From Gammaproteobacteria bacterium (GTDB lineage: Bacteria; Pseudomonadota; Gammaproteobacteria; Chromatiales; Sedimenticolaceae), in NCBI GenBank assembly GCA_020445165.1, contig JAGRHE010000095.1:1-9972 (forward strand): DNA of 9,972 bases, written 5' to 3'. Within the stretch, counting starts at the first letter, position 1, and the number at the start of each line of letters is the position of its first letter. The notes beneath the pieces are model-generated. The model did no database searches and was not told the DNA's origin. It saw only the letters and a program-made list of their open reading frames with translations. This document shows, one piece after another, positions 3,489-9,954 of the stretch. Made by a program: the position numbers and the translations under genes.

Positions 3489-3516
3489 ATAATACCCGCT
3501 GCCGGCGTCCGTTAAA
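3489..3516 (-). promoter_or_regulatory. Possible sigma-70 promoter for trmO
   Basis: On the minus strand TATTAT (3489-3494, 5 of 6) is preceded by TTTAAC (3511-3516, 3 of 6) with a 16-base spacer. The start would fall near 3482, about 47 bases ahead of the TTG. Its -35 overlaps the -35 of the divergent sigma-28-like promoter. The -10 is good, the -35 weak. Confidence 0.4.
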
Positions 3517-3539
3517 GTCGTTGCATTCCTGACCGATAA
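3513..3539 (+). promoter_or_regulatory. Sigma-28 (FliA)-type promoter for the leader ORF and c-di-GMP gene
   Basis: TAAAGTCG (3513-3520), 11 bases, then ACCGATAA (3532-3539). Against the E. coli FliA consensus TAAAGTTT-N11-GCCGATAA this is 6 of 8 and 7 of 8 with exact spacing, including the whole TAAA core. The -10 ends 23 bases before the ATG of the leader ORF, a normal short leader. It predicts late flagellar (class 3) expression of the gene downstream. Many FliA regulons include c-di-GMP enzymes, for example pdeH (yhjH) in E. coli. Seen by eye; no start-site data. Confidence 0.7.
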
Positions 3540-3628: not shown

Positions 3629-5727
3629 TGACCGCATTGCGCAAGCCTGTTGCGCTGTTCCTGCTGATCCTGGTCGGCGAACTCGTCTCGTCCCTGGTGC
3701 TGCATGGTGCGGACAGCCTGACGCCGGCCGCGGTCGGCACCGCTACCCTGGTTGCGGCGTTGATCGCCGTTGTCTGGGATTTCGCCGTACACCGCCCAGC
3801 AAGGCAAGGGATGCGAATGCTGCGCGGACGCATGCGCACGCTGTCTGCCCGTGCTCCGGGCGCACCCGACGACCAGCCGCGTCCGGGCTCGGATACCGAC
3901 CCTCTGACACTCGACCGCATTCTGGTCGCACGCCAGAAGAAGATCGCAGCCTATACCCGCCGGCTGCGCAGTCAGCTCGATCGCTACCAGGCAATTTATC
4001 GGCAATCGCATGACGCGGTCCTGGTGTTCGAACCGCACACCATGGTGCTTTTCGACTGCAACCCGCGCGCATGTGACTTCCTCGGCCGTTCACGTGGCGA
4101 GATGACCGGCCTGCGCCTGGTCGATCTGCACGACGAAGACGAGACCTATCTGCGCAACCTGATCGACGACGTCATGGGAAGCACGCATGGCAGGTATTTC
4201 CGGATCAACTACCGGACTGCAGATGGTCGCTTGTTGCCCGCCGAGGTCTCCGCATCACGCATCGTGCACGAACAGGGCAACCTGCTGATGTGCATCGCAC
4301 GTGACGTCAGTGAGCGGGAAAATGCCGCGCGCAAGATCCAGCACCTCGCCTATCACGACACGCTGACCAACCTGCCCAACCGCACCCTGCTGACCGACCG
4401 CGTCAATCGCGCCCTGGCACGCGCGCGGCGCACGAGCCAGGTCGGTGCGCTACTGTTTCTCGACCTCGACCGGTTCAAACGCATCAACGACTCCCTGGGC
4501 CATTCGGTCGGTGACGCGTTGCTCAAGGAACTGGCCAACCGCCTGCGCGCGACCTTGCGCGAGGAAGACACGGTCGCGCGTCTGGGGGGGGACGAATTCG
4601 TGATCCTGCTGGAAGGACTCGGTACCGACTCGCAGCTGGCAACCGACAAAGCGAGCGAGATCGCGGAGAAGGTCCGCCAGGTTTTCAACGATGAGTTCAT
4701 GCTCGACGGACATGAACTGTATGTCACATCGAGCATCGGCATCGTGACTTTCCCGCGCGACGGCGACAGCGTCGAAACCCTCCTCCGCCATGCCGACACT
4801 GCGATGTACCACGCCAAGGGTGCCGGTCGCGATGGCGCGCGGGTCTTCGAGAGCAGGATGGACGAAGCGGCCACGTCACGCCTGCGACTCGAAAACGAGT
4901 TGCGTATCGCGCTGCGGGAACAACAGTTCGAGTTGTACCTGCAACCGGTGCTGGCCATCCGCGATGGGCGCGTGCTCGGCGCCGAGGTGCTGGTCCGCTG
5001 GCAGCATCCGACCGAGGGCCTGATCTCGCCGACCGAGTTCATGACCTACATCGAAAACTGCTCGCTGATGCTCAAGCTGGATGACTGGGTACTGACCGAA
5101 ACCTGCCGATTGCTGGGTGAGATCGAGGCTGACGAAGACCTCCAGGTACCCGTGTCACTCTCCGTAAACGTCAGCCAGCAGCAATTCCACCAGGCCGATT
5201 TCGTCGACCGGGTGGCCATGATCCTGCAACAGACCAGCGCCGACCCTAGACGACTGCAGTTTGATATCACCGAGACGGTTCTGCTCAAGGACACCAGCGA
5301 GTCGGTAGCGCGCATCAATGCCCTGAAGAAGATGGGAATTCGTTTCGCGATTGACGATTTCGGGACCGGTTATTCATCCCTGGCCGACCTGCGCCAACTG
5401 CCGATCGATACGATCAAGATCGACCGCACCTTCATCCGGGATATCGCGACTGACCAGAACGATGCCGCGATCGTACGCGCTGTACTGTCGATGGCCACAC
5501 ACCTGGGCGTCAGCGTGATCGCCGAAGGCGTCGAGACGCGCGAGCAACTCAGCTTTCTGCGCCAGGCAGGCTGCCATTATTACCAGGGGTTTCTCGGCCG
5601 CCCACCCTTCTCCGCCGAGCGTTTCCGCGAGGAGCTCCAGTTCAGCGGCGAGCTTTACCGGCCGGTATCGCCGGAAAAATCGAATGCCACCGAGATCGAA
5701 CCGGCATCGTCGTCATCGGCCGCCTGA
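3628..5727 (+). CDS. Membrane-anchored PAS-GGDEF-EAL cyclic-di-GMP enzyme
   Basis: Bifunctional-type c-di-GMP protein of 699 aa. Two hydrophobic stretches (about 8-27 and 33-52) form an N-terminal membrane hairpin; a basic linker, then a PAS domain (about 120-232), GGDEF (about 236-405) and EAL (about 417-665) follow. The cyclase motif RLGGDEF is intact (GGDEF at 320-324), with the RxxD inhibitory site (REED) at its normal place. The phosphodiesterase side keeps the expected residues: AEVLVRW (E453; EVL replaces EAL), NVSQQQF, DITET, DDFGTGYSS (from 576), KIDRTF, AEGVET and the YYQGF glutamine. Both activities are therefore possible; which dominates cannot be read from sequence. ATG 3628 is used; GTG at 3625 is an adjacent alternative, and TGA at 3616-3618 closes the frame upstream. 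A sigma-28-like promoter links it to motility. It ends in a Ser-rich tail. Confidence 0.96.
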   Translation: MTALRKPVALFLLILVGELVSSLVLHGADSLTPAAVGTATLVAALIAVVWDFAVHRPARQGMRMLRGRMRTLSARAPGAPDDQPRPGSDTDPLTLDRILVARQKKIAAYTRRLRSQLDRYQAIYRQSHDAVLVFEPHTMVLFDCNPRACDFLGRSRGEMTGLRLVDLHDEDETYLRNLIDDVMGSTHGRYFRINYRTADGRLLPAEVSASRIVHEQGNLLMCIARDVSERENAARKIQHLAYHDTLTNLPNRTLLTDRVNRALARARRTSQVGALLFLDLDRFKRINDSLGHSVGDALLKELANRLRATLREEDTVARLGGDEFVILLEGLGTDSQLATDKASEIAEKVRQVFNDEFMLDGHELYVTSSIGIVTFPRDGDSVETLLRHADTAMYHAKGAGRDGARVFESRMDEAATSRLRLENELRIALREQQFELYLQPVLAIRDGRVLGAEVLVRWQHPTEGLISPTEFMTYIENCSLMLKLDDWVLTETCRLLGEIEADEDLQVPVSLSVNVSQQQFHQADFVDRVAMILQQTSADPRRLQFDITETVLLKDTSESVARINALKKMGIRFAIDDFGTGYSSLADLRQLPIDTIKIDRTFIRDIATDQNDAAIVRAVLSMATHLGVSVIAEGVETREQLSFLRQAGCHYYQGFLGRPPFSAERFREELQFSGELYRPVSPEKSNATEIEPASSSSAA
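4584..4591 (+). repeat. G8 homopolymer inside the GGDEF catalytic codons
   Basis: Eight consecutive G bases span the Leu-Gly-Gly-Asp codons of the RLGGDEF motif (CTG GGG GGG GAC). Slippage of one base here would abolish both the cyclase motif and the EAL domain. The tract is in frame in this assembly. Confidence 0.9.
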
Positions 5728-7677: not shown

Positions 7678-8430
7678 TCAGCGCGGGCAGTTTCCCTGGT
7701 CGCAGCGCGACCCGTCGATCCAGATCGCCCCCTGAAGCCTGGCGTCCCCAAACCGGGCACCTCCGATTCGCGCACCGCGCAGGTCGACATAACTCAGGTC
7801 GGCCCCGCTCAGGTCGCTATTGGTCAGGTCAGCATTGCGCAGGGTGGCACCCAGCAGGTTGGCCCGCTGCAGACGCGCATAGGCAAGGTCCGCTCCACTC
7901 AGATCGGCATAGCGCAGATCGGCAGCACGCAGATCGGCAGTGCCCAGGCGCGCACCGCTCAGGTTGATGTTTGTGGCATGTAAGTCGCGCAGGTCAACAC
8001 CCTCCCAGTCAACCCCGGACAACACGCATCCCTCGTAGACATTTCCCGCGGCCGGAGCCTCGTCACAGTCGCGTTCGGGCAGGGAATCGGTCTTGCTGAC
8101 CAGGGTAACCAGCACGATCAACCCGATCACGACACTGGCGGCCACAACGATAGACCGGAGCGCACGCGCGCGTTCGAGCCTGCGCACGACCTTGCGGTCC
8201 GGCTCGAGCACCGGACCGTCGCCAGCCGGTCGCATCTGCAGCGGCACCACTTCCGGCACCCGTCCGATCGGCTGCCACTGCTTGCGGTCGCCACTGACCT
8301 GGTCCTCCAGGGACAGTTTTCCCTCGAGCAGGAAATGCCGGATCTTGGCACTGCTGAAAGGGCCGCGGACGACGCTGCCACGCCGTACGAACCATTCCAG
8401 CCCCGGGATCTTCACCTGCTCTGTGCGCAT
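7678..8430 (-). CDS. GYF_2-transmembrane-pentapeptide-repeat protein
   Basis: A 250-aa three-part protein. Residues about 11-56 (WFVRRGSVVRGPF ... QWQPIG) match the GYF_2 (DUF4339) fold, a peptide-binding-type domain. A basic stretch RKVVRRLERARALR leads into one membrane helix (about 92-111). Residues about 136-237 are tandem pentapeptides of the A(D/N)LxX kind, such as LSGADLAYARLQRANLLGA, forming a right-handed beta-helix. By the positive-inside rule the GYF_2 part is cytoplasmic and the beta-helix periplasmic. Cysteines 122 and 135 before and 243 and 248 after the helix could be disulfides at its ends. ATG 8430 has GGAGG five bases upstream; the in-frame GTG at 8442 lies 5' of that site and is less likely. 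A sigma-28-like promoter precedes it, shared face to face with a flagellar FliK-like gene. No function is known to me. Confidence 0.92.
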   Translation of the reverse strand: MRTEQVKIPGLEWFVRRGSVVRGPFSSAKIRHFLLEGKLSLEDQVSGDRKQWQPIGRVPEVVPLQMRPAGDGPVLEPDRKVVRRLERARALRSIVVAASVVIGLIVLVTLVSKTDSLPERDCDEAPAAGNVYEGCVLSGVDWEGVDLRDLHATNINLSGARLGTADLRAADLRYADLSGADLAYARLQRANLLGATLRNADLTNSDLSGADLSYVDLRGARIGGARFGDARLQGAIWIDGSRCDQGNCPR

Positions 8431-8445
8431 TGTCGCCTCCACCTT

Positions 8446-8465
8446 CCGATAACTGCAGTTATCGG
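8446..8465. repeat. 20-bp perfect palindrome plus a third half-site (8474-8484)
   Basis: CCGATAACTGCAGTTATCGG is a perfect palindrome centred at 8455/8456. A third copy, CCGATAACTTG, follows in direct orientation at 8474-8484. The second and third copies, each preceded by G, form the -10 boxes of the two divergent sigma-28-like promoters. The first copy (TCCGATAA) has no matching -35 and may be a leftover or an operator half. Confidence 0.85.
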
Positions 8466-8480
8466 CTCACCTGCCGATAA
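8454..8480 (+). promoter_or_regulatory. Sigma-28-type promoter for the FliK-like operon
   Basis: TGCAGTTA (8454-8461, 5 of 8 to TAAAGTTT), 11 bases, then a perfect GCCGATAA (8473-8480). The GTG start lies 30 bases beyond, giving a short leader of about 24 bases. The -35 core TAAA is poorly matched, so strength may be modest or depend on the -10. A late flagellar promoter suits the FliK-like and FlhB-like products. Confidence 0.62.
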
Positions 8481-8485
8481 CTTGC
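8459..8485 (-). promoter_or_regulatory. Sigma-28-type promoter for the GYF_2-pentapeptide gene
   Basis: On the minus strand GCAAGTTA (8478-8485, 5 of 8) and a perfect GCCGATAA (8459-8466) are 11 bases apart. The -10 ends 28 bases before the ATG at 8430. It interlocks with the plus-strand promoter: each -35 shares three bases with the opposite -10, so polymerase could occupy only one at a time. Confidence 0.6.
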
Positions 8486-8510
8486 GCACCGGTCCACCCA
8501 GGCTCAAGAC

Positions 8511-9623
8511 GTGAAGATTCCGGCAACGCTGCAACCGCTGCTGACTGCATCCAGGAACGAGATTCCATCGCTGCTCAAGCAGCTCCAGATCGGCCAGATC
8601 CTGCCGGCCAAGGTACTCGCGCAATTGCAGCCCAATCTCGTCCGGCTGCAGCTTGCAACCACCGAACTGCTGGCCCGCAGCCCGGTGCGGCTGGAAACCG
8701 GCGCGTCCCTGCGCCTCGAGGTGGTCGCCAAGACACCAGTTCCGGAACTGCGCATCCTGCGCGAGCCAGTACCGGTCGACCCGCAGAAACAGGTGGTGCG
8801 CAGCGCTCTGGCACGGCAACTGCCCGCCGCGGACGTACGCGAACAGGTGGGCGCGCTGCGCCAGGCGGCACGCACGCCGCAACAAGTCGAGCTCCTGCAG
8901 CGTTTCGAATCCATTTTGCGCTCGGCAGGCCTGGGTCCGGAGCGTCCCACTGCGCACCAGGTCCAGCGCGCAATCGCGCTTAGCGGGATCTTTCACGAAA
9001 CGCAACTGCGCACCGGCACCTCGCCCACAGGCAACGTCAAGCGACAGCTGCTGCAACTGCTTTCGACGCTGAGCGGGGAAAGCCGGCAACGCACCCGCCC
9101 GGAGCCCGCAGCAGCCGACCGGCAGCCGACCTCGCCGGAAGGCGCCCGCTCAACCGACAGCCTGCTGAACCGCCTTCTGCGCCTGGTCGAAGGCAGCATC
9201 AACCGGATCCAGATGCAACAAAGCACGGCATTACCGGTCGAAGACAGTAACCGCCAGGCGTGGCAGGTCGACATCCCGATGCGACTGCCGGAAAGCGCCG
9301 ACGACATCCTGCTGCGCATCGAGCGTGACTCGGACAAGGATTCCGGCGATGGCACGGGCTGGGCGGTCAACCTGGCATTCGAGTTCGACACCATCGGGAC
9401 CTTGCAGTGCCGGATCGGGCTGCAGGGCGACCGGGTCGCAACGACATTCTGGTGTGAACAAAGCAGCACCCTGGAGCGCGTCGAGCAACGCCTGCCCACG
9501 CTGCACGAGGCACTCGAAGCACAGGGACTGGAGGTGGTGCATCTGCGCGGCACCCTGGGTGAACCACCCGATCCTCTACTGCACGTACCCTTGCCTGACA
9601 TCCTGCTGGATGAGCACGCCTGA
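8511..9623 (+). CDS. FliK C-terminal-like (Flg_hook domain) protein
   Basis: A 370-aa protein resembling flagellar hook-length control proteins in its C-terminal part. Residues about 245-350 (WQVDIPMRLPESADDILLRIERD, GWAVNLAFEFDTIGTLQCRIGL, TLERVEQRLPTLHEALEAQGLEV) fit the Flg_hook domain of FliK, which in true FliK contacts FlhB to switch export specificity. The N-terminal 200 residues are Leu/Gln/Arg-rich and helical, and a low-complexity linker (about 190-220) joins the parts. There is no signal peptide, as expected for cytoplasmic or type III-exported proteins. GTG 8511 follows a weak CAGG; it is the only start close to the promoter. The stop meets the next gene. Probably a FliK paralogue rather than the hook ruler itself, since no hook genes are adjacent. 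Confidence 0.85.
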   Translation: MKIPATLQPLLTASRNEIPSLLKQLQIGQILPAKVLAQLQPNLVRLQLATTELLARSPVRLETGASLRLEVVAKTPVPELRILREPVPVDPQKQVVRSALARQLPAADVREQVGALRQAARTPQQVELLQRFESILRSAGLGPERPTAHQVQRAIALSGIFHETQLRTGTSPTGNVKRQLLQLLSTLSGESRQRTRPEPAAADRQPTSPEGARSTDSLLNRLLRLVEGSINRIQMQQSTALPVEDSNRQAWQVDIPMRLPESADDILLRIERDSDKDSGDGTGWAVNLAFEFDTIGTLQCRIGLQGDRVATTFWCEQSSTLERVEQRLPTLHEALEAQGLEVVHLRGTLGEPPDPLLHVPLPDILLDEHA

Positions 9624-9624
9624 C

Positions 9625-9954
9625 ATGAAGCGCCGTGATCCCCTCGTATCCGGACACAGCGACGTCGCGATCGCGTTGCGTTACGACGGCAAGGGAGCAC
9701 CACGCGTCACTGCGAAGGGCGACGCACACCTTGCCGAACGGATCATCGAGGCCGCAGAGCAAGCCGGCGTGCCGCTATACCCCGACGCCGAACTGGCAAT
9801 GGTGCTGTCGCAGATTCCTATGGGAGAAGAGATCCCGGACAACCTGTACAAGGCGATCGCCGAGGTGATCGCTTTTGCCTACATTCTGGCCGGCAAGTTC
9901 CCGGAGGGATTCGATCTGCACCAGCCGCCGGGGCCGCAGGCAGGTGACGACTGA
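9625..9954 (+). CDS. FlhB cytoplasmic-domain-like protein without the NPTH autocleavage motif
   Basis: A roughly 109-aa soluble protein (114 aa if started at the in-frame ATG 9610, which overlaps the FliK-like gene by 14 bases; ATG 9625 lies one base after that stop). It matches the C-terminal domain of FlhB/YscU: VAIALRYDGKGAPRVTAKG, LAERIIEAAEQAGVPLYPDAELAMVLSQIPMGEEIPDNLYKAIAEVIAFAY. The membrane domain is absent. Where FlhB has NPTH before AVALRYD, this protein has GHSD, so self-cleavage is not expected. Such stand-alone proteins are often encoded next to FliK-like genes (for example ylqG-ylqH in Bacillus). It is co-transcribed with the FliK-like gene and may modulate or partly replace the FlhB cytoplasmic domain; that is inference. 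Confidence 0.9.
   Translation: MKRRDPLVSGHSDVAIALRYDGKGAPRVTAKGDAHLAERIIEAAEQAGVPLYPDAELAMVLSQIPMGEEIPDNLYKAIAEVIAFAYILAGKFPEGFDLHQPPGPQAGDD

Follow-up and report, generated by a model that had tools for sequence, protein, structure and literature searches.

The window analysed here, a 9,972-nucleotide stretch of DNA from a gammaproteobacterium of the family Sedimenticolaceae (contig JAGRHE010000095.1), contains two diverging genes separated by an intergenic gap of 80 bases, which extends from ATG 8430 on the minus strand to GTG 8511 on the plus strand. The leftward gene (7678–8430, minus strand) encodes a 250-aa protein with a GYF_2 domain and pentapeptide repeats, as judged by Pfam; its start at ATG 8430 has GGAGG just upstream and is shared in position by homologues, and GTG 8442 also lies in frame. 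The rightward gene (8511–9623, plus strand) encodes a FliK-like protein with a Flg_hook C-terminal domain, an assignment based on Pfam and homologues. It is followed in the same operon by a gene (9625–9954, plus strand) for a 109-aa protein resembling the cytoplasmic C-terminal domain of FlhB, which matches positions 260–334 of the 335 in PF01312. Because a second, stronger FliK match occurs elsewhere in six of the nine genomes searched in the window's clade (10 genomes, comprising the window, L001–L008 and L139), the copy beside the gap is regarded as a second, divergent FliK; in the remaining three genomes, which are drafts, no FliK beyond this one was found. The presence of FliA (13/14 and 27/29 genomes), FlhA (14/14), flagellin (13/14) and FlgM (45/46) indicates that the relatives are flagellates. 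In addition, the FlhB-like protein starts near the self-cleavage site and reads SGHS where FlhB has NPTH; it may imitate the switch domain in an uncleaved or pre-cut form.

The gap carries two predicted promoters facing in opposite directions, and their geometry agrees in every respect with the original prediction of two interlocked, face-to-face sites. The -10 box GCCGATAA is perfect (8/8 bases) on both strands, at 8473–8480 (plus) for the fliK-like operon and at 8459–8466 (minus) for the pentapeptide gene, the two copies being 6 bases apart. Each is separated by an 11-base spacer (N11) from a -35 octamer, TGCAGTTA at 8454–8461 on the plus strand and GCAAGTTA at 8478–8485 on the minus strand. 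The overlap of each -35 with the opposite -10 is exactly three bases and reciprocal: positions 8459–8461 are common to the plus -35 and the minus -10, and positions 8478–8480 to the minus -35 and the plus -10. Together the sites span 32 bases, with 30 nt between the plus box and GTG 8511 and 28 nt between the minus box and ATG 8430. The sequence can be written as TGCAGTTATCGGC-TCACCT-GCCGATAACTTGC, an imperfect inverted repeat, so that symmetrical core elements for two orientations are present in overlapping DNA, an arrangement kept across the clade. By chance, 0.15 occurrences of GCCGATAA are expected per window, and three matches were reached in 0/200 shuffles; the third match in the window (3996–4003, minus) lies within a GGDEF-EAL reading frame. 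A half-copy, CCGATAA at 8446–8452, which the original prediction did not mention, forms a perfect 20-bp palindrome with the minus box (CCGATAACTGCAGTTATCGG, 8446–8465). When the 10 clade genomes are aligned on an anchor, this palindrome is specific to the window, and the half-copy falls in the unconserved left flank.

Both sites were scored with a FliA (sigma-28) matrix built from 25 E. coli ChIP-seq sites that are bound in vivo, the rows scoring above 4 in the site table of PMC4183435, whose text gives 26. The scores of 17.73 (plus) and 19.02 (minus) fall within the range of bound E. coli sites, the matrix being that of E. coli and not of the host; in a leave-one-out comparison, 12/25 and 10/25 bound sites outscore the plus and the minus site, respectively. 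Across the 10-kb window the two sites rank third and second, and the next-best position reaches 10.6. The null fractions of 3.2e-5 and 1.9e-5, taken over 310,114 positions, are somewhat high because the gap sites themselves were included. Against this fit, the matrix derives from E. coli and gives motA sites taken as true only 8–13. The top score in the window (19.5) belongs to a separate plus-strand site at 3513–3539, TAAAGTCG-N11-ACCGATAA, located 23 bases upstream of ATG 3563; this ATG opens a 21-codon frame, and the GGDEF-EAL gene begins in overlap with its stop codon. The site is a likely sigma-28 promoter for this c-di-GMP gene.

The -35 elements fit less well. Each matches the -35 consensus TAAAGTTT at 5/8 positions, and TAAAG is absent from both. 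Within the same order, TAAAG was found in 30/30 motA upstream regions examined (a match occurred in 42/46 genomes and loci were available for 30), the typical best site being TAAAG-N11-NCCG(C/T)TA or similar, and in 22/25 readable flgM upstream regions. The procedure that picked these sites sought the TAAAG consensus and thus leans towards it; the constancy is nonetheless clear. The -35 elements in the window are weaker than those found upstream of motA and flgM in this order, and the fliK gap shows the reverse composition, combining a perfect -10 with a poor -35. A comparable combination is bound in vivo in E. coli at fliAYZ (TGCAGAAA), yafY (GATGAATG) and ves (AACGTAAA), according to the table in PMC4183435. 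At E. coli aer, where the -10 is imperfect, single -35 changes, one of them yielding TATAG, strongly reduce activity, as described in the available text of PMC2859248. Regarding the bases that are retained, the plus -35 has an invariant T1 and an invariant A4 in 33/33 chosen rows, and the surrounding bases vary; these rows were drawn from 37, with L157 (a near-copy) and L185, L201 and L287 (doubtful picks) left out. A scan of 13 spacer offsets placed N11 best on both strands in clade A; on the plus strand it was best in three of the four groups. The offsets favoured in group B2 are N10 (plus) and N12 (minus), and in a distant interlocked group a spacing of 12 bases suits the minus -35 better than one of 11. 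The original interpretation is partly supported. Site sequences, matrix fit and an interlock conserved within the clade and across separate lineages are consistent with two sigma-28-type promoters, and the -35 elements without TAAAG speak against them; FliA dependence, a switch or balance, and a late flagellar role for both products are predicted parts of that interpretation.

Readings with other sigma factors were considered and rejected. A sigma-54 reading, in which the consensus GG-N10-GC spacing was set by eye against the right box, gave no fit. A sigma-70 reading, TTGCAG-N17-GATAAC, fits roughly in the window, and its first hexamer fails in other groups. Flagellin upstream regions yielded no clear sigma-28 site and were useless as a control, loci matched on the minus strand having been scanned unturned; genome-wide TAAAG or AAG sites with CCGATA were mostly background. 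Several separate observations were made in the relatives. Flagellin genes at L060, L063 and L086 have an apparent sigma-54 promoter rather than a sigma-28 one, of the TGGC-N-TTGC type. Those at L059, L072, L074 and L085 (G002, G004) are preceded by a palindrome around TACGAACNTTCGTA with flanks GGCGGTA and TATCCGCC. In two genomes, TAAAGTT(C/T)-N11-GCCGTTAG stands before type IV pilin-like genes (L211, L222) as a possible sigma-28 site.

Within the window's clade, both boxes occur at the same offset in 10/10 genomes, and a threshold of 12 is passed on both strands in 9/10, the exception being L006 with a minus score of 11.7. Element identity to the window is 69–88%, and that of the ungapped flanks is 22–51%. 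The mean majority share is 0.84 over the 32 element columns versus 0.49 and 0.51 in the flanks, which delimits an ungapped island of conservation. This island speaks against chance similarity without function, as does the frequency of such sites in mononucleotide-shuffled gaps (plus 1.0%, minus 1.6%, both in 0/1460), and this explanation appears very improbable.

Conservation was also followed beyond the clade. An initial set of FliK homologues comprised 14 loci from records labelled Gammaproteobacteria, Chromatiaceae or Chromatiales, plus Thalassolituus; among 210 genomes searched in the same order, 108 gave a FliK match, and gaps were taken from 86 of them, together with four outside. Of 105 loci, 73 were counted after removal of 14 second genome copies and 18 near-copies or rows with uncertain starts. 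At a threshold of 12 on both strands, 17 of these 73 gaps are interlocked, 16 carry the minus site only, 13 the plus site only, 3 both sites elsewhere and 24 none. Restoring the 18 rows (1 interlocked, 2 plus, 15 neither) gives 91 gaps, with 18 interlocked, 16 with the pentapeptide-side (minus) site only, 15 with the fliK-side (plus) site only, 3 with both elsewhere and 39 with neither, although in several of the 15 restored rows with neither the match begins inside the protein and the true gap is perhaps out of view. In all 18 interlocked gaps the box-to-box offset is exactly 14 bases. The original prediction had named orthologous gaps without either box as evidence against it; it withstands this check inside the clade, where both boxes are present in 10/10 gaps, and fails it farther out, where 39/91 gaps have neither. 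In a quick FliK tree of the 73 rows, the interlocked state occupies 10/10 members of the window's clade, 8/10 of a distant group and L149; these 19 rows include two relabelled by hand, L006 (minus 11.7) and L199 (where a chance hit is 0.1 higher). The state needs five changes on this tree, and the starred branches force five. The layout could either be ancestral and subsequently lost or have arisen more than once. In L149, L150, L152, L153, L190 and L202, the plus box ends 8–10 nt upstream of the fliK ATG and a ribosome site is not evident, as for a near-leaderless fliK transcript.

The inverted repeat might instead be the operator of a dimeric regulator of both genes, its likeness to sigma-28 sites being incidental. 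The near-perfect dyad GTTATCGGC-N6-GCCGATAAC, whose spacing is fixed in the clade, and the weak -35 elements are in keeping with such an operator, which was favoured once the constancy of TAAAG at motA and flgM was known. Matches with up to three mismatches also exceed a reversed-pattern control (64 vs 10 forward in G001–G008), the pattern being rich in common codons. At up to two mismatches, however, the matches listed comprise the fliK gap and a few single places, and one strict repeat search revealed no second family of the dyad among the matches listed. Furthermore, no regulator gene adjoins the gap in the window, and the invariant T and A of the 33 chosen rows lie outside the dyad. The arms are also lost one at a time, in the 15 plus-only gaps (such as L150, L152, L153, L190 and L202) and the 16 minus-only gaps (such as L160, L162, L163, L166 and L296, the last with TAAAGTTG-N11-GCCGATAT) among the 91. 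Because the boxes are lost singly among relatives, two promoters are preferred to one dimer operator. The operator was dropped on these single losses and the E. coli table, and the matrix fit, the constancy of T1 and A4 and the separate loss of boxes led back to sigma-28; an operator is now considered unlikely.

Single retention bears on a further alternative, in which FliA transcribes in just one of the two directions in the window's genome, the opposite site being a leftover or its role being taken by a sigma-70 promoter elsewhere in the gap. Many relatives do keep one site alone, and a sigma-70-like TATACT or TATAAT lies on the fliK side of several minus-only relatives. In the window's clade, by contrast, both -10 boxes and both spacers are retained in 10/10 genomes and column conservation spans both sites, which makes a single working direction improbable there.

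The gap thus likely holds two interlocked, divergent FliA-type promoters, a reading drawn from sequence, to which the holoenzyme would bind either way but not both. On the complementary strand, the opening bases of each -10 box would double as the final three bases of the -35 facing it, and FliA-RNA polymerase, if it binds the two sites as their sequences suggest, would occupy either orientation and never both at once. One orientation would yield the fliK-like/flhB-C transcript, with a start expected near 8486, and the other the pentapeptide-gene transcript, with a start expected near 8453. These positions are extrapolated from E. coli aer, where the start lies 6 bp past the -10 octamer (PMC2859248, available text). 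Mutual exclusion would follow from the overlapping footprints and from analogy with sigma-70 bidirectional promoters (PMC12825309, available text). The two genes are probably rivals for a single polymerase, and the arrangement may act as a switch or balance between the two products. It is proposed, more tentatively and at somewhat less than even confidence, that the pair represents a class of bidirectional flagellar-sigma promoter, with each -10 woven into the opposite -35, that was maintained or evolved anew in no fewer than two separated lineages. Such a promoter would share out a single late-flagellar polymerase between the second FliK with its FlhB-C partner and a pentapeptide protein of the membrane, at a ratio fixed without a regulator. 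The second FliK with the short FlhB-like protein, an unstudied pair, and the GYF-pentapeptide membrane protein are accordingly suggested as members of the flagellar programme.

Individually, the window sites resemble known FliA sites. In PMC4183435, E. coli FliA sites combine a GCCGATAA -10 with an N11 spacer, and the site bound at the fliA gene of E. coli, TGCAGAAA-N11-GCCGATAAC, has the same TGCAG -35 as in the window (Table 2). Among the 52 sites listed in that source, no overlapping divergent pair was seen, unlike in the window; the fliC and fliD motifs, for example, have centres 120 bp apart. The CRP-dependent sigma-28 promoter of aer, TAAAGATA-N11-GCCGACAT, shares the N11 spacer, whereas it is one-directional and has an activator and the window pair has no known activator (PMC2859248, available text). 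No overlapping, divergent or bidirectional sigma-28 pair was described among the matches listed in a search of the open literature. The closest parallel is provided by the sigma-70 bidirectional promoters of E. coli reported by Warman, Grainger and colleagues (PMC12825309, available text), in which pseudo-symmetrical DNA supports mutually exclusive orientations, as proposed for the window. There the starts are mostly 18 bp apart, and also 10 and 23 bp, versus about 33 bp expected in the window, which differs further in its sigma factor and in the overlap of each -10 with the opposite -35. Bidirectional promoters have been described for sigma-70, which is tolerant of loose sites. If a stringent alternative sigma factor truly uses a conserved pair of this kind, the layout can be selected and not merely tolerated, and the pair would offer a clear example of competition between two orientations for the same holoenzyme.
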